Source: Deltaproteobacteria bacterium (GTDB lineage Bacteria; Desulfobacterota; DSM-4660; Desulfatiglandales; Desulfatiglandaceae). From it: a stretch of DNA of 6,384 nt. The notes beneath the pieces were generated by a model that saw nothing but the letters and a program-made list of their open reading frames with translations, ran no database searches and was not told where the DNA came from. Shown here piece after piece: positions 1 to 6,384 of the stretch; position 1 is the first letter of the stretch; the number at the start of each line of letters is the position of its first letter. The position numbers and the translations under genes are program-made. The DNA lies in contig JAFDJF010000246.1 of assembly GCA_019307645.1 (NCBI GenBank), positions 1 to 6,384 of the forward strand, in the 5' to 3' direction.

Positions 1-1278
1 TTCACCAATGGCATTGTCTATTTTGATCTGGGTCTCAATCTACGGACCCTGCCGGATAAATACCTCCCTTATGTGCCGCTGTTCGGCAGGAGCTTTGTTG
101 AGATGGGAACCCACAAGGAGGACTTTGTCTCTCTCATGCAGCGTATAAGCCGAAAAACAGGGGGTATCAGCCCTCAATCATTAATCTCTGCCACAAAAAG
201 ATCCGACAAAAGTACTGCCTGGCTGTTCCTGCACGGGAAGGCGATGTTTTCCCAGACAGAGGACTTGACTGATATTTTTCGCGATATACTCCTTGACGTT
301 AGACTGGACAACCGGGAAAGGTTCCGCCAGATGGTACTTGAGGCCAAAGCCAGAGCGGAGCAGAAAATAGTCCCCAGTGGTCACGATGTCGTCAATCTGC
401 GCCTAAGGGCCCACTTTGGGGAGTCCCATTGGGTTGCGGAACAGATGCGCGGGATAAGCTATCTCTTCTTTCTCAGAAAACTCGTCCACACCGTTGATGA
501 AAACTGGCCCGAGGTACTCGCGGTTCTTGAGGAGATGCGGCAAATTCTCGTAAACCGAAACGGCCTCATTTTAAATATCACCATGGACGAGCAGAACTGG
601 GCCGGATTCGAACCTCATGTAGACGCCCTTTTGAGCGCCTTACCCGAAGCACAGGTTAAGGAGAAAGGCTGGTCGCCCAAACCCACAGCTCTTTTTGAAG
701 GCATGACCATCCCCTCCCTTGTAAATTATGTCGGCAAAGGTGCGGATCTCTACAAACTGGGATACAGGTTCCACGCATCTTCAATGGTTATCACCCGTTA
801 TCTGCGCAATGCCTGGCTTTGGGATCAAGTACGTGTCCAGGGGGGGGCCTACGGGGCCTTCTGTCTTTTTGACCGTATTTCAGGCGCCCTTACCTTTGTT
901 TCATACCGGGACCCAAACCTCATAAAGACGCTTGAGTCCTTTGACAACACAGCCCGATTCCTCTTTGAAACAGATCTTAATAAAGAAGAGCTGACCAAAA
1001 GCATCATCGGCACCATTGGAGACCTGGATGCCCATATGCTCCCGGATGCCAAGGGATATGCATCCATGGTGCATTATCTTATAGGAGATAAGGAAGAGGA
1101 GCGCCAGCAGATGAGGGATGAAGTATTGGGCACTAAAGCGTCTGATTTCAAGGCATTTGCCCAAGTGCTTGAGCAAGTAAGGGAAAACGGACTGGTGAAG
1201 GTGCTCGGATCATCGAACGCCATCGAAGAGGTCGCCACCGATCGTCCGGGATGGCTTGATGTGGTCAAGGTTCTTTAG
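1..1278 (+). CDS. M16C (presequence protease/PreP-like) zinc metallopeptidase, C-terminal part, 5' end outside window
   Basis: The frame is open from base 1 and ends with TAG at 1276-1278, giving the last 425 residues of a protein that is usually about 970-1000 residues long. An in-frame GTG at 73 is not the start, because the residues before it (FTNGIVYFDLGLNLRTLPDK) are typical of the M16C-associated region. What is present corresponds to the third and fourth M16-fold domains. Family members degrade unfolded peptides inside a closed two-halved chamber. The zinc-binding HxxEH motif lies in the N-terminal half and cannot be seen here. The C-terminal domain keeps the substrate-binding motif VRVQGGAYGA, with the conserved Arg at 832-834 and Tyr at 850-852. 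An uninterrupted run of eight G (840-847) lies in this motif, and the frame stays open through it. The gene converges on the lpxC fusion. No signal peptide can be judged. The family assignment is firm; the physiological role is inferred. Confidence 0.93.
   Translation, partial: FTNGIVYFDLGLNLRTLPDKYLPYVPLFGRSFVEMGTHKEDFVSLMQRISRKTGGISPQSLISATKRSDKSTAWLFLHGKAMFSQTEDLTDIFRDILLDVRLDNRERFRQMVLEAKARAEQKIVPSGHDVVNLRLRAHFGESHWVAEQMRGISYLFFLRKLVHTVDENWPEVLAVLEEMRQILVNRNGLILNITMDEQNWAGFEPHVDALLSALPEAQVKEKGWSPKPTALFEGMTIPSLVNYVGKGADLYKLGYRFHASSMVITRYLRNAWLWDQVRVQGGAYGAFCLFDRISGALTFVSYRDPNLIKTLESFDNTARFLFETDLNKEELTKSIIGTIGDLDAHMLPDAKGYASMVHYLIGDKEEERQQMRDEVLGTKASDFKAFAQVLEQVRENGLVKVLGSSNAIEEVATDRPGWLDVVKVL
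1272..1278 (+). repeat. presumed target-site duplication, left copy
   Basis: TCTTTAG here and again at 1471-1477. The last three bases are the stop codon of the peptidase gene. Removing one copy plus the element would leave the same stop codon followed by about 17 bases before the lpxC stop. A 7-bp match can arise by chance, and the three-base gap (1279-1281) on this side is unexplained. Confidence 0.5.
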
Positions 1279-1281
1279 GGT

Positions 1282-1301
1282 CAATGGCAAAAACTTAAGG
1301 A
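1282..1301 (+). repeat. left terminal inverted repeat of the MITE-like element
   Basis: Twenty bases, 19 of them complementary to 1451-1470; the outer 17 are a perfect match. The single mismatch, at 1299 against 1453, would be a G-U pair in RNA. Confidence 0.8.
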
Positions 1302-1347
1302 CTGTTTGTATGATTTAGCATCAGAAATTCTTTTCATGCGCGAAAAT

Positions 1348-1405
1348 TTGAACAATCGAATATCGAATACATGAATTCCGAATGACGAAGGAATCGACTG
1401 TTCAA
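1348..1405. repeat. imperfect inverted repeat inside the MITE-like element
   Basis: TTGAACA at 1348-1354 is complementary to TGTTCAA at 1399-1405. Pairing continues imperfectly inward (AATCGA against TCGAC). The loop between them holds short repeats of the type ATCGAAT and CGAAT. This gives the element a second hairpin inside the one formed by the terminal repeats. Confidence 0.45.
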
Positions 1406-1450
1406 TTTCTCTTTACATGGAAGTAAAGTCTAATGGTGCAATTTAAAAAA

Positions 1451-1470
1451 TCTTTAAGTTTTTGCCATTG
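1451..1470 (-). repeat. right terminal inverted repeat of the MITE-like element
   Basis: Complement of the left arm at 1282-1301. It is followed directly by TCTTTAG (1471-1477), the second copy of the presumed target-site duplication. Confidence 0.8.
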
Positions 1471-1494
1471 TCTTTAGAATAAATTCTTTGCTAG

Positions 1495-3681
1495 CTACAG
1501 CTGCCGTTGATTGCGAAGCATGCGAACGAATTCTGTGTTCTCACTGTGACCTGTCATATTTGCCGTGATCTTACCGATCAGTGGGTGACCCAGCAGATAC
1601 AGGTCCCCCAGCATGTCAAGGATTTTATGCCTGACAAATTCATCAGGAAACCGGAGATCCGTATTGATAATTTTTTCATCGTCTATCAAAATAAAGTTAC
1701 TCAGACGACCGCCACTGGCCAACCCCATTTCTTCAAGGGCCTCAATATCCTTTACAAACCCGAAAGTCCTTGCCGGAGCGATCTCCTTTTTAAACGCCTC
1801 TGCGCTATCCAGTGTAAAGGTGTATTCCTGAAGTCCGACCGGTTTTGGATACTGCAGTATATAATGGATTATCAGTTTGTCTGCAGGTTCAATGGTAATA
1901 AACTTGCGCTTTTTTTTGACTTTACCATAGACATATTTCTCTTCAATAACAAACTCATCCAGCAATTCATCCTGATCTTCAATCCCTGCATCCTCAACAA
2001 GCTGACAGAAGTCAAGGGCAGACCCGTCCATAATAGGGACCTCATTGTTAATTTTTATCATGAGGTTTGATATTCCATAGGCATGAAGCGTTGCAAGAAG
2101 ATGTTCTACCGTAAAAGCCTTCGTTTGTTCATTCTTAAGGCATGTTGCAAAATTTGTTGACGCGACAAAATCTATATTTGCCGGTATTGTTTCACCACTG
2201 GAAATGTTGCTGAAAACAACACCACTGCCAGGCGGCAACGGCGTAAGAATCAAGCCGGTCTTATCCCCGGAATGGAGTCCGGTGCCACCCACGACAATGC
2301 TTCTCTTCAGCGTTCTTTGAAACTTTTTCTTAGGCTCCTTTCCCTGTTTCAGTATGATGCCGTACTCCTGGATATATTTCTTCAGAACCTCTTCCTTGAT
2401 ATTTAATTTCACTGCTGTTTTCTTAAGGTTCTTATTGTGCTTTCTAAGAAAATAAAGCAGATAATTCTTCCTCCATGCTGCCTCCGACTCCTCCATGCTT
2501 TCATGCTTTTCATAAAAACGGGCCATGCCGTATTGCATTTCGTCACGTATCGAAGGCGGTATATCATGGGCGGTAATATTTCTTGTAGGAACCGAGACAA
2601 CCATTTTTTCAACCAGATTTTTCAACTCTTTTACGTTACCCGGCCAATCATAATTGATCAGGATCTCAAGGGCATCATCTTCAATATGCTTTTCTCTGAA
2701 CCCATAATCTTTACAAAAATAGTCAACGAACATATTCAGAAGAAGCGGGATGTCTTCCCTTCTCTTCTGAAGGGAAGGCATCTCTATCACACGGGGAAAA
2801 CAATCAATGAGACCTTTATACAGTTTCTGGTCTTTGACCAGTTTGTCTATATTGTTACTCAAAGAGGCAATAATTCGCACATTGGAACCTTTCAGTTCCG
2901 GGTTTGCGACAACGGCCGCCAGCCTTTCCTGGATTTTCAATGGAAGAATATCCACTGAACCCAGGAAAATTGTGCCGTCTTTGGCATTAAAAATAACGCT
3001 CTTTTTGCCGCATATTTGATCTTTTCCTTTCCGGGAACCAAACAGGGCGACTTCCAGTTTTTGAGGCGTGTAAAATGCACAGTTGATTTTTCTTAAACGC
3101 TGAGACTTTCTTTTTGAAGCCGCATGTATAAGACGGGAAACAAACTCCTTTCCTGATCCAACCTGACCTGCCAAAAGGATATCATCATCGCTGCGAGCTA
3201 CTTTCGGAATAACATTTTTTATCTTGATAATGCTCTGATCTTTGCCGGTCAGAGCCAGTTTGCCTTCTTCTGCAGATAGTGTATCATCTTTCTTGGCATT
3301 TTTAGTGGTGGATTGCTGTTTTTTTATGACCTGGTTTATGAGATCAATCGCAGAATCAAGGGAAAAAGGTTTTTCCAGAAAATCAAATGCCCCGTCTTTA
3401 ATCGCCAGTACAGCCGTGTTGACGCTCCCGTGACCCGTCATCATGACGACTTCAATCGCGGAATTAAAATCCTTAATAGCCCTTAGTGTCGTCAGGCCGT
3501 CCATTTCAGGGAGCCAAATGTCAAGGAAAACCATATCAACCGGCTGAGATTTAATTATCTCCATCGCCCTTATTCCATCTGAAGACGTGAGCACAATATA
3601 GCGCTCATCTTCCAGGCTGCCTTTCAAAGAATCAATAATCGAATCTTCATCATCAACCAACAATATTACGGGTGTTTTCAT
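1495..3681 (-). CDS. lpxC: response regulator (REC)-degenerate sigma54 AAA+-Fis HTH-LpxC fusion; UDP-3-O-acyl-N-acetylglucosamine deacetylase
   Basis: This 728-residue protein has four parts. Residues 1-121 are a receiver domain with the acidic pocket D10/D11, phospho-acceptor D54 (FLDIWLPEMDG), T82 and K104. Residues 144-378 follow the NtrC-type AAA+ pattern, with Walker A GQVGSGKE (172-179) and the YDWPGNVKELKN end motif. However, Walker B reads TIFLGS instead of xxFLDE, and the GAFTGA loop is replaced by GKDQICG (219-225). Residues about 398-442 form a Fis-like helix-turn-helix. Residues 455-728 are a full LpxC, which removes the acetyl group from UDP-3-O-acyl-GlcNAc in the committed step of lipid A synthesis. 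Zinc ligands H527, H685 and D689, catalytic E526 and H712, and the motifs MDGSA, ARTFGF and FVRHKILD are all present. The start has AAGGA eight bases upstream. Free-standing LpxC is about 300 residues, so the domain is complete. The gene lies 49 bp downstream of the thioesterase. Gating of LpxC by phosphorylation is inferred, and the cognate kinase is not in the window. Confidence 0.95.
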   Translation of the reverse strand: MKTPVILLVDDEDSIIDSLKGSLEDERYIVLTSSDGIRAMEIIKSQPVDMVFLDIWLPEMDGLTTLRAIKDFNSAIEVVMMTGHGSVNTAVLAIKDGAFDFLEKPFSLDSAIDLINQVIKKQQSTTKNAKKDDTLSAEEGKLALTGKDQSIIKIKNVIPKVARSDDDILLAGQVGSGKEFVSRLIHAASKRKSQRLRKINCAFYTPQKLEVALFGSRKGKDQICGKKSVIFNAKDGTIFLGSVDILPLKIQERLAAVVANPELKGSNVRIIASLSNNIDKLVKDQKLYKGLIDCFPRVIEMPSLQKRREDIPLLLNMFVDYFCKDYGFREKHIEDDALEILINYDWPGNVKELKNLVEKMVVSVPTRNITAHDIPPSIRDEMQYGMARFYEKHESMEESEAAWRKNYLLYFLRKHNKNLKKTAVKLNIKEEVLKKYIQEYGIILKQGKEPKKKFQRTLKRSIVVGGTGLHSGDKTGLILTPLPPGSGVVFSNISSGETIPANIDFVASTNFATCLKNEQTKAFTVEHLLATLHAYGISNLMIKINNEVPIMDGSALDFCQLVEDAGIEDQDELLDEFVIEEKYVYGKVKKKRKFITIEPADKLIIHYILQYPKPVGLQEYTFTLDSAEAFKKEIAPARTFGFVKDIEALEEMGLASGGRLSNFILIDDEKIINTDLRFPDEFVRHKILDMLGDLYLLGHPLIGKITANMTGHSENTEFVRMLRNQRQL

Positions 3682-3689
3682 CTTCCAAA

Positions 3690-3694
3690 TCCTT
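3690..3694 (-). promoter_or_regulatory. ribosome binding site of the REC-LpxC fusion
   Basis: On the minus strand this reads AAGGA, eight bases before the ATG at 3679-3681. It supports the start used. Its outer base overlaps the inverted repeat at 3694-3712. Confidence 0.65.
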
Positions 3695-3712
3695 TCAGAA
3701 TTTCTTTCTGAA
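3694..3712 (-). promoter_or_regulatory. inverted repeat abutting the ribosome binding site of the lpxC fusion
   Basis: TTCAGAA and TTCTGAA form a perfect 7-bp inverted repeat around five bases. It lies between the thioesterase stop and the fusion start and touches the AAGGA ribosome binding site. It could be a small mRNA hairpin tuning translation of the second gene, or a protein-binding site. No run of T follows it, so it is not a clear terminator. Confidence 0.4.
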
Positions 3713-3730
3713 CCTGGTAGGCAATTTCTC

Positions 3731-4204
3731 TCACAGGCCTGGTATCATGTGCTCCGGCATCTGAACCGCAACGACTTCCCCTTTTGCGCAAACCTCCCCA
3801 TCTGCCGACACGGTAGCGCTCACAACAACCTTCCGCCCCGTGACTTCCTTTATTTTCCCACGGACCTCCAGGGGCACGCCATGGGGTGTGGGGCGCACAT
3901 ACTGAACCTGCAGCGATGCCGTCACAAAGCGAAACGGTGGCTCCGTGCCCATCTCGCGCCCATCATCACGATAAGCAGCCGCTGCAGCCGACCCTGTGCC
4001 ATGGCAGTCGATGAGCGAAGCAATTAGTCCGCCGTAAACATAGCCGGGAATAGCCGTGTGGTATGGTCCGGGGTGAAAGGTGGCGACCGTTTCATCGCCG
4101 TCCCAGTAACTCTTAAGGTGCAGTCCGTGGTCATTGAGACGACCACATCCATAGCAATGGCTTTGGTCATCCGGATAGTAATCCTGAAATGCTTTTTGAT
4201 TCAT
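3731..4204 (-). CDS. PaaI-like hotdog-fold acyl-CoA thioesterase
   Basis: This 157-residue protein has the single-hotdog layout of the PaaI/4HBT thioesterase superfamily, which hydrolyses acyl-CoA thioesters. It starts with the motif CYGCGRLNDHGLHL (C17, C20), common in one branch of these proteins. The central helix follows as YVYGGLIASLIDCHGTGSA (56-72), carrying the GG and acidic residue expected at the active site. The strand segments VTASLQVQYVRPTP and EVRGKIKEVTGRKVVVSATV come next. Full length for the family; cytosolic, with no signal peptide. The start has GGGGAG seven bases upstream, and a promoter candidate lies at 4247-4275. It appears to be the first gene of an operon with the lpxC fusion. 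It is much richer in G+C than the lpxC fusion: 38 of 60 bases at 3901-3960 against 20 of 60 at 1921-1980. The acyl substrate cannot be predicted. Confidence 0.88.
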   Translation of the reverse strand: MNQKAFQDYYPDDQSHCYGCGRLNDHGLHLKSYWDGDETVATFHPGPYHTAIPGYVYGGLIASLIDCHGTGSAAAAAYRDDGREMGTEPPFRFVTASLQVQYVRPTPHGVPLEVRGKIKEVTGRKVVVSATVSADGEVCAKGEVVAVQMPEHMIPGL

Positions 4205-4246
4205 GCACTATCTCCCCGTTGGACAAGGCGAACCCTTTACCTCTGT

Positions 4247-4275
4247 AAAATATCTCAAATCTCAAAGGTTTGCAA
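4247..4275 (-). promoter_or_regulatory. promoter candidate for the thioesterase-lpxC operon
   Basis: On the minus strand TTGCAA (4270-4275) is followed after 17 bases by TATTTT (4247-4252). Each matches four of six bases of the sigma70 -35 and -10 boxes, with ideal spacing. Transcription would begin near 4240, about 35 bases before the thioesterase ATG. Confidence 0.4.
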
Positions 4276-4374
4276 GCCACAATTCGTTTAGCTTCAGGGT
4301 TTGATACCAGTTAAGCGCTTTGACGGATCGGAGGGAGGCCGATGAGATTCTCTTTTCGAAAGTGTGTGAATTGC

Positions 4375-4403
4375 TTGACTTTCTTTGAAACAGGGCTTAT
4401 CAG
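4375..4403 (+). promoter_or_regulatory. promoter candidate for the ACT-NTF2 genes
   Basis: TTGACT (4375-4380), 17 bases, then TATCAG (4398-4403): a good sigma70 -35 box with a weaker -10 box. The predicted transcription start (about 4410) falls just before the perfect palindrome at 4417-4443. That would place the palindrome at the 5' end of the mRNA or in an operator position. If real, it argues for translation from 4519 rather than from the in-frame ATG at 4342. Confidence 0.4.
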
Positions 4404-4416
4404 TGTCTTTAAAGGT

Positions 4417-4443
4417 TCGCGTAAAAATGTTATTTTTACGCGA
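4417..4443. promoter_or_regulatory. perfect 12-bp-arm palindrome (operator or 5' leader hairpin)
   Basis: The arm TCGCGTAAAAAT (4417-4428), the loop GTT, and the arm ATTTTTACGCGA (4432-4443). With one G-U and two G-C pairs outside, the RNA stem could reach 15 pairs (4414-4446). No T run follows, so it is not a typical terminator. It sits 75 bases upstream of the ACT gene start. A second short pairing, AGGGCT (4392-4397) with AGCCCT (4443-4448), could compete with its outer base pairs. Confidence 0.6.
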
Positions 4444-4507
4444 GCCCTTAGGGTTAAAAATTCGACCGCAAAACCTATCTATGAGGCCAGTGAGCCATTC
4501 AAAACAC

Positions 4508-4512
4508 AGGAG
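4508..4512 (+). promoter_or_regulatory. ribosome binding site deciding the ACT protein start
   Basis: AGGAG six bases before the ATG at 4519. It is well spaced and directly precedes the first conserved ACT residues. It is the main reason to prefer this start over the in-frame ATG 59 codons upstream. Confidence 0.75.
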
Positions 4513-4518
4513 TTTATT

Positions 4519-5013
4519 ATGGTTAGAACTGAAATCTCTCTTTTTTTGAAAAATGTCCCCGGTGAATTAGGCAAGCTGTCTGCGCTTCTTTCAAATGAAA
4601 ACATCAACATTGATGCGCTTACGATACAGGACGCTTCAGGTTATGTGGCTGAATTATTCCAGGCAAGGGGGAAGTCGCTGAAACGGATTGCCTCTCCTGC
4701 GACTTACAATTCCATGCGAAAGGATTCGGCGCAGTTTGCGCTTATCCGCCTGCTGGTAGATGACTCTGATAAGGCAGTAGATCTTTTGTCAATGAATGAT
4801 TACCTGTTTGAGATTAACAGGGTGATTGCTGTGGAGCTTGACAATCGACCGGGCACCCTGGCAGGAATCACAGCCAAATTCGGTAAAGAGGGGATAAATA
4901 TCAGTTATGTTTACGGGTCTGTATCGTCTCCAAAGGCAAAATGTCTCTTTGTATTTTGCCCTGAAGATATTGAGCTGGCTGCGAAAATATTCAAACAGAA
5001 GGGGAAGAAATAG
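4519..5013 (+). CDS. tandem ACT-domain protein
   Basis: This 164-residue cytosolic protein is made of two ACT domains. The first begins ISLFLKNVPGELGKLSALL (6-24) and runs on through NINIDALTIQDAS. The second is VELDNRPGTLAGITAKFGKE (105-124) followed by GINISYVYGS. ACT domains usually bind amino acids or other small ligands at domain interfaces, and no catalytic domain is attached. Proteins of this type are often assumed to sense amino acids or to regulate a neighbouring enzyme, but the ligand is unknown. The first domain carries about 28 extra residues (about 42-70) between its second and third expected strands. The open frame continues upstream to an ATG at 4342, which also has a GGAGG sequence, but that extension has no ACT similarity and contains the palindrome. 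Twelve bases separate the stop from the next gene, so the two are probably co-transcribed. Confidence 0.85.
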   Translation: MVRTEISLFLKNVPGELGKLSALLSNENINIDALTIQDASGYVAELFQARGKSLKRIASPATYNSMRKDSAQFALIRLLVDDSDKAVDLLSMNDYLFEINRVIAVELDNRPGTLAGITAKFGKEGINISYVYGSVSSPKAKCLFVFCPEDIELAAKIFKQKGKK

Positions 5014-5025
5014 AGTAAGGTGTAA

Positions 5026-5907
5026 ATGATGAGAAATCGATTCCCACGAGAAGAATTACTTAGGGTTGTAGAGGCATCTCCGAAAGCTGTTGGCACACAT
5101 GACAGGCGGGCATGGCTTTCAATATTTGCAAAAGAAAATATTGTTGAAGATCCTGTTGGTTCCACACCCCATCGTACCGGGAAAACGGAACGGAAAGCCG
5201 GGGAAATGGAAAGTACCCCTTTGGAAAGGTTTTATGATACATTTATCGCACCTAACGAAATCAAGTTTCATATCAAACAGGACATCGTGGCCGGCAACAC
5301 GGTGATAAGGGATTTAAAAATAGAAATCATAATGTCTAAAGCGCTTGCGGTATCTGTTCCAATGCATCTTTTCTATGAGCTGGATGATGAAGATGGCGAA
5401 CTCAAAATCTGTCATTTGTCGGCACACTGGGAACTGCCTGCAATGATAAAGCAGGTTATGAGTCACGGACTGGCAGGGCTTCAAACAATGACAAAACTCG
5501 GTATCAGAATGATGAAGTATCAGGGGATCATGGGCTCTTTGGGTTTTTCAAAAGGTTTTTTTGGTATTCATCAAAAAGGAAAGGATTATGTCCGGGACTT
5601 TGTGACAGCTGCTAATTCAAGAAACGCTGAAATGTTATCAACACTCTTTTGTCCAAACAACACCGGCATTGAATTCCCGGAAATGGGCGCAACTTTAAAT
5701 CCGGACTCCTTTGCAGACAGCCTGGACATAAAAATCTCCATATCAAAAATATTATCAGCAGGTTTTATAACTACCTTCACCTTTGATGCGGATTATAATG
5801 GACATGGATATCCGGGAGTTGGCAGGTTTGAGTTTGATTCAAAAACAAAGAAAATAAAAACCGCACAATTTTTTCGGGACGAAGGCGAGTTAAATGTGGG
5901 ACCCTGA
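5026..5907 (+). CDS. protein with two NTF2/SnoaL-like domains (ketosteroid-isomerase-like fold)
   Basis: This 293-residue protein has a first NTF2-like domain at about residues 8-140. Its pattern is typical of SnoaL-type proteins: THDRRAWLSIFAKENIVEDPVGS (24-46), then ERFYDTFIAPNEIKF, VIRDLKIEI, VPMHLFYELD and ICHLSAHWELP. A glycine- and methionine-rich amphipathic stretch (about 148-182) links it to a second, weaker NTF2-like region (about 184-288: KGKDYVRDFVTAANSRNAEM through TAQFFRDEGEL). The fold is used by isomerases, cyclases and small-molecule binding proteins. The specific reaction cannot be assigned. AAGGTG (5017-5022) is only three bases from the ATG at 5026 but six from the next ATG at 5029, so Met2 may be the true start. 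It probably shares a transcript with the ACT gene upstream. Confidence 0.75.
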   Translation: MMRNRFPREELLRVVEASPKAVGTHDRRAWLSIFAKENIVEDPVGSTPHRTGKTERKAGEMESTPLERFYDTFIAPNEIKFHIKQDIVAGNTVIRDLKIEIIMSKALAVSVPMHLFYELDDEDGELKICHLSAHWELPAMIKQVMSHGLAGLQTMTKLGIRMMKYQGIMGSLGFSKGFFGIHQKGKDYVRDFVTAANSRNAEMLSTLFCPNNTGIEFPEMGATLNPDSFADSLDIKISISKILSAGFITTFTFDADYNGHGYPGVGRFEFDSKTKKIKTAQFFRDEGELNVGP

Positions 5908-5940
5908 ACCCATAAACGGTTAATCCAGTTTATTGAGTGA

Positions 5941-5960
5941 AGGTATAATCAGATATACCT
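5941..5960 (+). promoter_or_regulatory. inverted repeat with embedded TATAAT directly before a start codon
   Basis: AGGTATA (5941-5947) and TATACCT (5954-5960) form a perfect 7-bp inverted repeat around six bases, ending at the base before the ATG at 5961. TATAAT occurs at 5944-5949, but no convincing -35 box lies 16-18 bases upstream. It may be a weak promoter or operator, or an mRNA hairpin that hides the AGG sequence. Confidence 0.4.
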
Positions 5961-6290
5961 ATGGATGCTGAAAAAACATACAACTGTCTCCTCTGGTTTA
6001 TTTTTATTATGTCGCCATTCACATTTGTCAGTACTCTGTTTTACACAAATCCCTATGGCAGATTCAAAAAAGCGTCTGACAGGTTTACCATCAAATCACT
6101 ACCCGGCTGGCTTATCATGGAGTTTCCATGCCTTGTGGTTTTTGCTGTCACTTTCTTTTGTGGAGCAAACAAAGATGCGCTTGTGCCCCTTGTCTTCCTT
6201 TTTATCTGGCAGACACACTATGTTTACCGTTCAATTATCTTCCCTTTGCGTATGCGTGACAGAAAAAAAAGAATGCCCTTTTTTGAGTAA
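5961..6290 (+). CDS. steroid 5-alpha-reductase family protein, N-terminal half only (truncated, possible pseudogene)
   Basis: The 109 residues match the N-terminal half of the 3-oxo-5-alpha-steroid 4-dehydrogenase family, integral membrane enzymes of about 250-260 residues. Visible features are a membrane segment at 9-28, the NPYGRF motif (30-35), PGWLIMEFP opening a second membrane segment (48-67), a third at 73-94 with HYVYRSIIFPL, and then KKRMP. E54 and Y87 line up with the Glu/Tyr pair that contacts the substrate in human SRD5A2 (E57, Y91). The second half, with the NGYLNG-type motif and the NADPH-binding helices, is missing. TAA follows four residues after MP (KKRMPFFE), and none of the three downstream frames to the window edge resembles the family. 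A frameshift near the A8 and T6 runs, a nonsense change or a rearrangement would explain this. No well-spaced ribosome binding site is seen. The family is likely; its function in this organism is unknown. Confidence 0.65.
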   Translation: MDAEKTYNCLLWFIFIMSPFTFVSTLFYTNPYGRFKKASDRFTIKSLPGWLIMEFPCLVVFAVTFFCGANKDALVPLVFLFIWQTHYVYRSIIFPLRMRDRKKRMPFFE

Positions 6291-6384
6291 TCCTCTTACC
6301 GCATTCTGGAAACAATCGGGTTCTTCATCCGGCCCGGTGCCGCATGTGAGTCTCCCGGAAAAACCAGGATCAAATGGCACCCCT
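6291..6384. other. unassigned right edge
   Basis: These 94 bases after the truncated reductase carry no recognisable gene on the plus strand. On the minus strand a frame is open from the edge to a TGA at 6231-6233 (50 codons), but its translation does not resemble any family I know. The segment could be decayed reductase sequence, an inserted element or the tail of a gene outside the window. Confidence 0.3.

Follow-up and report, generated by a model that had tools for sequence, protein, structure and literature searches.

Receiver-LpxC fusions of probable NtrX descent in Desulfobacterota and other lineages, with a proposed phospho-control of lipid A commitment

How does the enzyme that commits a cell to lipid A come to be the output domain of a response regulator, and what might the regulator part do there? 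LpxC carries out the classical commitment step of lipopolysaccharide (LPS) synthesis, is a drug target, and is controlled mainly by protein turnover. The question is raised by a 6,384-nucleotide stretch of DNA from Deltaproteobacteria bacterium (Desulfobacterota; Desulfatiglandaceae; assembly GCA_019307645.1, contig JAFDJF010000246.1, positions 1 to 6,384), here called the window, in which one gene, designated ntrX::lpxC, encodes a receiver, the rest of a response regulator, and LpxC in a single polypeptide. Response regulators with enzymatic output domains, of the CheB, GGDEF, and HD-GYP types, resemble the fusion in placing a receiver before an enzyme; to our knowledge, most of those known act in signalling and not at a committed biosynthetic step.

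The fusion gene and its distribution

The gene is a single ATG-to-TAG frame from 3681 to 1495 on the minus strand, encoding 728 amino acids (aa) with zero internal stops, which bears out the uninterrupted frame claimed, without its strand, in a preliminary description of this DNA (Table 1). The protein consists, in order, of a receiver (REC), a sigma54-type AAA+ region, the remnant of a helix-turn-helix (HTH), and a complete LpxC. All residues named in that description are as stated, namely D10, D11, D54, T82, and K104 of the receiver, where the phospho-acceptor aspartate, acidic pair, Thr/Ser, and Lys are thus all present, and E526, H527, H685, D689, and H712 of LpxC, which are taken here to be its zinc ligands and catalytic residues. 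The LpxC domain is full-length, with 281.2 bits against PF03331 (cut-off 27) and 271.5 bits against TIGR00325 (above the equivalog cut-off of 187.25), and it is probably an active deacetylase. In an AlphaFold2 (AF2) model (mean predicted local distance difference test, pLDDT, 81.8; predicted template modelling score, pTM, 0.47), of which the individual folds were trusted and the domain arrangement was not, Foldseek placed Brucella NtrX at the top of its matches (E 1.4e-32), with Aquifex LpxC 1yh8 in fourth place (TM-score by target 0.92). The model of an AAA-less REC-LpxC form was poor (pTM 0.40, pLDDT 57.7) and was left unused. The Fis-like HTH of the preliminary description stands in part: the window protein has no Pfam HTH_8 match at E 0.01, but an NtrX HTH profile matches the segment at E 9e-5 (among 78 sequences) and the AF2 model shows three helices (396-414, 419-425, and 430-439), by which it is classed as a diverged remnant.

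The REC-LpxC fusion is real and forms a widespread lineage. A protein search took whole proteins in a fitting length range and scored them by their LpxC part only; of the best 120 of its 6445 matches, 110 were counted by eye as having both a receiver and an LpxC domain, the remaining ten being proteins of 416-629 aa without a receiver. A scan of a genome collection, in which 78 loci were kept out of the 80 top-ranking of 350 candidate stretches, found REC and LpxC in one open reading frame (ORF) at 77 loci (56 with AAA+ and 21 without), the 78th being cut by its contig. The fusion loci are labelled Desulfobacterota, Nitrospinota, Tectomicrobia, Schekmanbacteria, and Desulfomonile, together with some Nitrospirae-labelled assemblies. 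Similar fusions in Desulfobacterota, which had been suspected beforehand, are present in at least 66 of the 297 genomes that were taken as a sample of the phylum of G002 (an uncultured Desulfobacterium locus), a Desulfobacterota-type group in which 272 of the 297 match the fused-LpxC model; these 66 score 281 bits or more, and the next score below them is 238 bits, where the frames are about 315 aa long. Each of the 66 members was examined, and in every one REC and LpxC lie in a single ORF, with AAA+ in 14 and an incomplete receiver in two (L097 and L123). Nitrospinota-type groups contain the fusion as well. In the phylum of G025 (Nitrospinaceae label), 55 of 60 genomes match the LpxC model, 54 of them at 394 bits or more, which by score counts 54 of these 55 as fusion genomes, and 18 of 20 fetched loci have REC and LpxC (one of these being L253), the other two being cut by a contig end. 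Frames of 731-755 aa occur in 4/4 genomes of the phylum of G012 (Schekmanbacteria label), and 17 of 18 genomes match in the phylum of G015, several only partly; these two samples were read by score and frame, and domain by domain for the loci of the genome scan.

Nearly every fusion genome seen has the fused gene as its only lpxC. PF03331 matches once per genome in 78 of the 78 genomes reached through fusion loci (34/34 and 44/44), a count that covers relatives of the window, and the situation that the preliminary description had named as damaging, a second lpxC beside an inactive fused one, was found in none of them. A stand-alone lpxC does accompany the fused gene in 3 of the 66 fusion genomes of the phylum sample, G121 (L118/L119), G251 (L120/L121), and G295 (L122/L153). 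In all three, the stand-alone lpxC is followed by a gene for an NtrY-like kinase. LpxD was matched in 28 of 34 fusion genomes searched, with no match in the other 6. Two further candidates were rejected. Open frames of 1423, 1007, and 1111 aa resembled a kinase-REC-LpxC triple fusion, and all three have no Pfam domain before REC, the kinase of G163 and G130 lying in another, overlapping frame. For a viral origin, two loci came from a viral collection, neither with a receiver.

Conservation of the receiver and LpxC and decay of the activator motifs

The wider family was compared over 143 fusions, 72 bearing AAA+ and 71 without it, with identical LpxC domains counted once; receiver residues were counted in 140 of them, as the incomplete receivers of L009, L123, and L253 were left out. 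The LpxC residues E526, H527, D552, H685, K686, D689, and H712 are kept in 143/143 fusions. Receiver D54 and K104 are kept in 140/140, D11 in 139/140, and D10 in 135/140, with Glu instead in four. In the 108 full-length relatives of the window protein, D10, D11, D54, T82, and K104 are intact throughout, and the Walker A residues G172, G175, G177, and K178 are likewise intact in 108/108.

The other motifs of the AAA+ region have decayed. GAFTGA is understood here as the loop contacting sigma54, and Walker A, the Walker B D-E pair, and the arginine fingers as the ATPase residues. The window protein retains Walker A and has lost GAFTGA, the Walker B catalytic Glu, and the arginine-finger motif. 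Across its 108 relatives, the GAFTGA loop varies or is missing, and neither Glu nor Asp ever occupies the second Walker B position (Ser in 58, Ala in 44, Gly in 5, and Phe in 1). Among the 72 AAA+-bearing fusions, neither GAFTGA nor the arginine-finger motif occurs in any, the Walker B Glu is found in one (Asp in five), and the Walker A Lys is found in 71, whereas 17 stand-alone REC-AAA+ regulators of the phylum sample, 14 of which adjoin NtrY, have the arginine-finger motif in 17/17 and GAFTGA in 12 (14 by relaxed match). This contrast indicates that the transcription output is gone while the receiver and the enzyme are held. Brucella NtrX also lacks GAFTGA in the alignment, yet its Walker B pair is present; loss of GAFTGA alone is therefore no marker of the fusions, and loss of the ATPase residues is. 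The preliminary description had spoken of a complete response-regulator architecture, which does not hold, given these decayed motifs and the absence of the whole AAA+ domain from 71 of 143 fusions.

Within the window clade, identities among 13 proteins chosen for diversity are 0.52-0.76 for REC, 0.63-0.73 for LpxC, 0.35-0.48 for AAA+, and 0.25-0.62 for HTH, the middle part being the most diverged. The HTH remnant is detectable with the NtrX HTH profile in the window clade and in other AAA+-bearing members. Among the 71 AAA-less fusions, the sole HTH is that of L059 (REC, weak HTH, and LpxC), which is by its domain sequence an intermediate form. The fusion closest to a working NtrX is L016 (Schekmanbacteria label), with 521 bits to the NtrX profile; it keeps an intact Walker B D-E pair and lacks GAFTGA.

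Probable descent from NtrX and gene association with an NtrY-like kinase

Among NCBIfam regulator models, NtrX (NF051870) scores best for the window protein, at 270 bits against a cut-off of 600; three stand-alone operon relatives, at 479-520 bits, also remain below it, and the claim for the fusion is descent from NtrX, not membership of NtrX. NtrX of the NtrYX systems (Brucella 5m7n/5m7p; Rhodobacter, Caulobacter) is the best PDB match in both sequence and fold, and an NtrY-like partner is probably shared as well; the fusion differs by its enzyme output and by an AAA+ whose catalytic motifs are lost or which is absent. On an NtrX profile, six complete held-out operon NtrX proteins score 627-732 bits, one truncated protein 576, and other regulators 485-551; the best matches in 13 fusion-only genomes reach 482-533 bits (in G012 the fusion itself), and this profile search found no stand-alone NtrX in those 13. 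Of the two-copy genomes, G251 retains a stand-alone NtrX at 700 bits, and the best match in G121 is 499.

Stand-alone lpxC genes were also placed in context, using 38 loci of the phylum sample that were picked by hand, some of them cut by contig ends. A same-strand NtrY-like kinase gene follows lpxC at 17 of these loci (16 within 1 kb and one at 2.7 kb), and the order lpxC, ntrY, ntrX on one strand is found at 14 (L136-L142, L144, L146, L149, L156, L165, L166, and L168). Genes that adjoin one another in some species and are fused in others are a classic sign of a functional link, which is thereby indicated for lpxC, ntrY, and ntrX.

The kinase of the fusion loci is a protein of 750 aa with NtrY_N, HAMP, PAS, HisKA, and HATPase domains, and the NtrY_N Pfam domain was above its cut-off in 3/3 kinases scanned, in one of them barely. 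Its gene lies immediately upstream of the fusion on the same strand at 44 of 77 loci, and at 21 loci a further gene precedes the kinase (a DUF4390 protein in the one member scanned). An NtrY-like kinase was matched in 76 of 78 fusion genomes (19/19 and 57/59), three of these matches (G050, G065, and G078) being fragments that score below 300 bits, against about 240 for other kinases. The kinase can also be encoded away from the fusion, as in G001 and G002, the named genomes closest to the window. REC-AAA+ genes were absent around 16 such distant NtrY genes, five of which lie on contigs no longer than 6.2 kb, and two of the 16 loci hold a protein with a weak REC match. The evidence for pairing is strong gene association in the family, the window itself containing no kinase gene, and NtrY would be a likely direct controller of fused LpxC.

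The LpxC tree, for which thinning left 75 of 146 rows, separates fused from stand-alone LpxC by one branch (support 99), and AAA-bearing forms are interspersed with AAA-less ones (7 and 8 changes, of which no fewer than 2 are forced). The fused copy of G251 (L120) forms a long branch there. The REC tree (56 rows) groups the receivers of fusions with operon NtrX against three other regulators (support 100); the REC data are short and do not fix the position of the fused receivers inside the NtrX group, and one fused REC clade is compatible with them (approximately unbiased test, p-AU 0.615). One fusion with repeated AAA+ loss is favoured by these sequences, because L059 keeps an HTH.

Fused and stand-alone proteins also differ at their C-terminal ends. 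In the phylum sample, stand-alone LpxC continues past the domain for a median of 36 residues, with at least 20 in 35 of 38, and fused LpxC for a median of 5, with at least 20 in 0 of 161 ORFs (overlapping loci included). In E. coli, the FtsH degron lies at this end of LpxC. As a C-terminal tail has been exchanged for an N-terminal receiver, the comparison suggests that turnover control may have been replaced by a phospho-switch. LapB (PF18073) was considered as a sign of proteolytic control and was uninformative, its zinc ribbon matching Gram-positive controls as well. Several points go beyond the preliminary description: an NtrY-like partner, an origin from NtrX, LpxC as a single copy, forms without AAA+, the loss of the tail, and the occurrence in Nitrospinota-type groups.

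Proposed control of LpxC, rival explanations, and gene neighbourhood

The regulator half of these proteins is probably an NtrX response regulator turned into a covalent phospho-control module for LpxC, and the most economical reading of the sequences would be that a signal acts directly, within one polypeptide, on commitment to lipid A. In the ancestor, lpxC, the gene for an NtrY-like membrane kinase, and ntrX would have stood side by side, lpxC would have become the C-terminal output domain of NtrX, and stand-alone ntrX and lpxC would have been lost in most descendants. We infer that NtrY phosphorylates the fusion, with altered LpxC output: the membrane kinase would sense the envelope and phosphorylate the receiver Asp (D54 in the window protein), the receiver would change how active the attached LpxC is, how it oligomerises, or where it sits on the membrane, and lipid A commitment would follow the signal at once. 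The AAA+ part would no longer open sigma54 promoters and, with Walker A, may serve as an ATP-binding oligomerisation scaffold in the window protein; it would be dispensable, because it is absent from about half of the fusions in the comparison. The chances appear evenly balanced for the broader proposal that, in Nitrospinota, in Tectomicrobia- and Schekmanbacteria-like lineages, and in about one-fifth of the Desulfobacterota-type phylum sample, NtrY phosphorylation of LpxC sets lipid A commitment, the phospho-switch having replaced tail proteolysis and a sigma54 activator having been converted stepwise, its AAA+ being inactivated before it was deleted, the latter on more than one occasion.

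Several observations weigh against this proposal. The kinase is not always at hand, as 33 of 77 fusion loci have no NtrY-like kinase directly upstream (two of these having no upstream gene on the contig), none lies beside the fusion in the window or in its two nearest genome relatives (L001 and L002), both of which encode one elsewhere in the genome, G052 and G055 gave no NtrY match among at most 18 candidates scored per genome, and 21 of the 38 stand-alone lpxC loci show no NtrY-like kinase. AAA-less forms join REC and LpxC through long, low-complexity linkers (gap median 43 aa), and hence no rigid coupling is seen, nor did AF2 yield a trusted domain arrangement for the window protein (pTM 0.47) or for the REC-LpxC form (0.40). 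Three of the 143 fusions have an incomplete receiver: at L009/L097, which come from the same genome, the receiver is split by an apparent frame break and the L009 ORF holds only 28 REC residues; L123 is missing the first third of REC; and L253 has an interrupted receiver match. LpxC is intact behind the incomplete receiver at each of these loci. FastTree places the AAA-bearing receivers in one group (0.956), whereas the LpxC tree mixes the two forms, so that there may have been two separate fusions.

The flexible linkers would suit a tether, in which the receiver mainly docks LpxC on NtrY or dimerises it and the signal shifts location or stability and not catalytic rate. The loss of the C-terminal tail, suggesting changed turnover control, and the kinase, a membrane protein by family that adjoins the fusion at 44 of 77 loci, also agree with such an arrangement, but the phospho-acceptor, acidic pair, Thr/Ser, and Lys are all kept, beyond the needs of mere docking, and the tether is unlikely. 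More doubtful still is a bifunctional protein that remains a DNA-binding regulator beside its LpxC activity, for example by repressing its own operon. Although an HTH remnant persists in the window clade and other AAA+-bearing members, L016 keeps the Walker B D-E pair, and the solved Brucella NtrX is likewise without GAFTGA, the arginine-finger motif is missing in 72/72 fusions and the Walker B Glu is present in just 1/72, L059 alone among the 71 AAA-less fusions has an HTH, and the window HTH is below the Pfam threshold.

If lpxC had simply been caught behind ntrX, the receiver would be a relic that merely links expression. The decay or absence of AAA+ does show regulator parts without constraint, and 3 of 143 receivers are incomplete; this explanation is nevertheless very improbable, as D54 and K104 are kept in 140/140 receivers while the adjoining AAA+ lost its catalytic motifs, and the kinase was matched in 76 of 78 genomes. 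An assembly error or frameshift joining two genes, to which the broken receivers of L009/L097 and L123 might point, is scarcely credible and is refuted by independent genomes: the window gene is not an assembly join, because the architecture recurs in 110 of the best 120 homologues, at 77 genome loci, and throughout the 66-member set of one phylum sample, where two receivers are incomplete.

Among known systems, classical LpxC (PF03331, TIGR00325) shares with the fusion the full domain, all zinc and catalytic residues, and the Aquifex fold, and the fusion differs from it by an N-terminal regulator of 450 residues, the lack of a C-terminal tail, and its own branch in the tree. LpxC-FabZ proteins (PRK13188/NF009667) also contain a fused LpxC but join two enzymes of linked pathways and have no receiver; the window protein scores 207.5 on NF009667 against a cut-off of 465. 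LpxC-FabZ is described for Bacteroidetes, Chlorobi, and Verrucomicrobia (PMC3087551). Loss of NtrYX in R. sphaeroides raises lpxC mRNA 8.8-fold and LPS about 2-fold, and with no NtrX site found at lpxC the control there was called indirect (PMC7240162). By analogy, phosphorylated NtrX might restrain LpxC. A study of Desulfovibrio vulgaris gives lpxC as the single mapped target of the response regulator DVU2934 and places lpxC of Syntrophobacter fumaroxidans directly upstream of the operon orthologous to that of DVU2934 (PMC3333781). DVU2934 resembles the fusion in being a two-component regulator dedicated to lpxC and in coming from the window's broad group, but it works on the lpxC promoter, whereas the fusion receiver sits on the LpxC protein. 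Neither a REC-LpxC or NtrX-LpxC fusion nor LpxC as a response-regulator output domain was found in the open-access papers searched, a set that takes in few subscription journals, and the accessible text of a 2025 review of lipid A regulation contains neither "fused" nor "receiver" (PMC12444477).

If NtrY does control fused LpxC by phosphorylation, a membrane sensor kinase could switch the LpxC enzyme itself rather than genes, and the family would tie NtrYX to LpxC by a dedicated connection at the protein level while providing the sole LpxC of entire groups. Such a link would offer a direct assay for NtrYX action on the envelope, with receiver phosphorylation as input and deacetylation as readout, and the fusions would form a natural series of a transcription factor becoming an enzyme regulator.

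Table 1. Features of the 6,384-nucleotide window and of the fusion protein encoded in it
Feature	Position	Strand	Basis or remark
Fusion gene ntrX::lpxC, 728 aa	1495..3681	-	Single ORF; Pfam and NCBIfam
Receiver domain, residues 6-113, phospho-acceptor D54 with D10, D11, T82, K104	3343..3666	-	PF00072, E 4e-28
Degenerate sigma54-type AAA+ (Sigma54_activat), residues 145-291	2809..3249	-	PF00158, E 2e-22; motif comparison with stand-alone NtrX
AAA+ lid (AAA_lid_14), residues 306-382	2536..2766	-	PF25601, E 3e-23
Fis-type HTH remnant, residues 396-439	2365..2496	-	Weak NtrX-HTH profile match; AF2 helices
LpxC deacetylase domain, residues 455-722, followed by 6 residues	1516..2319	-	PF03331, E 1e-83; TIGR00325
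Purine-rich stretch before ATG, probable ribosome-binding site	3682..3695	-	Direct reading of sequence
C-terminal part of M16C/PreP-type peptidase, running off the left end	1-1278	+	PF08367, PF22516
Hotdog (4HBT) thioesterase-like protein	3731-4204	-	49 bases upstream of the fusion, same strand
Double ACT-domain protein	4342-5013	+	Pfam/NCBIfam
Weak SnoaL-like protein, 293 aa	5026-5907	+	Pfam/NCBIfam
Protein of 109 aa	5961-6290	+	No Pfam or NCBIfam match

In the neighbourhood of the fusion, the M16C/PreP-type peptidase gene is convergent with it, and the place held in the window by the 4HBT gene is taken by the NtrY-like kinase gene at 44 of the 77 related loci.

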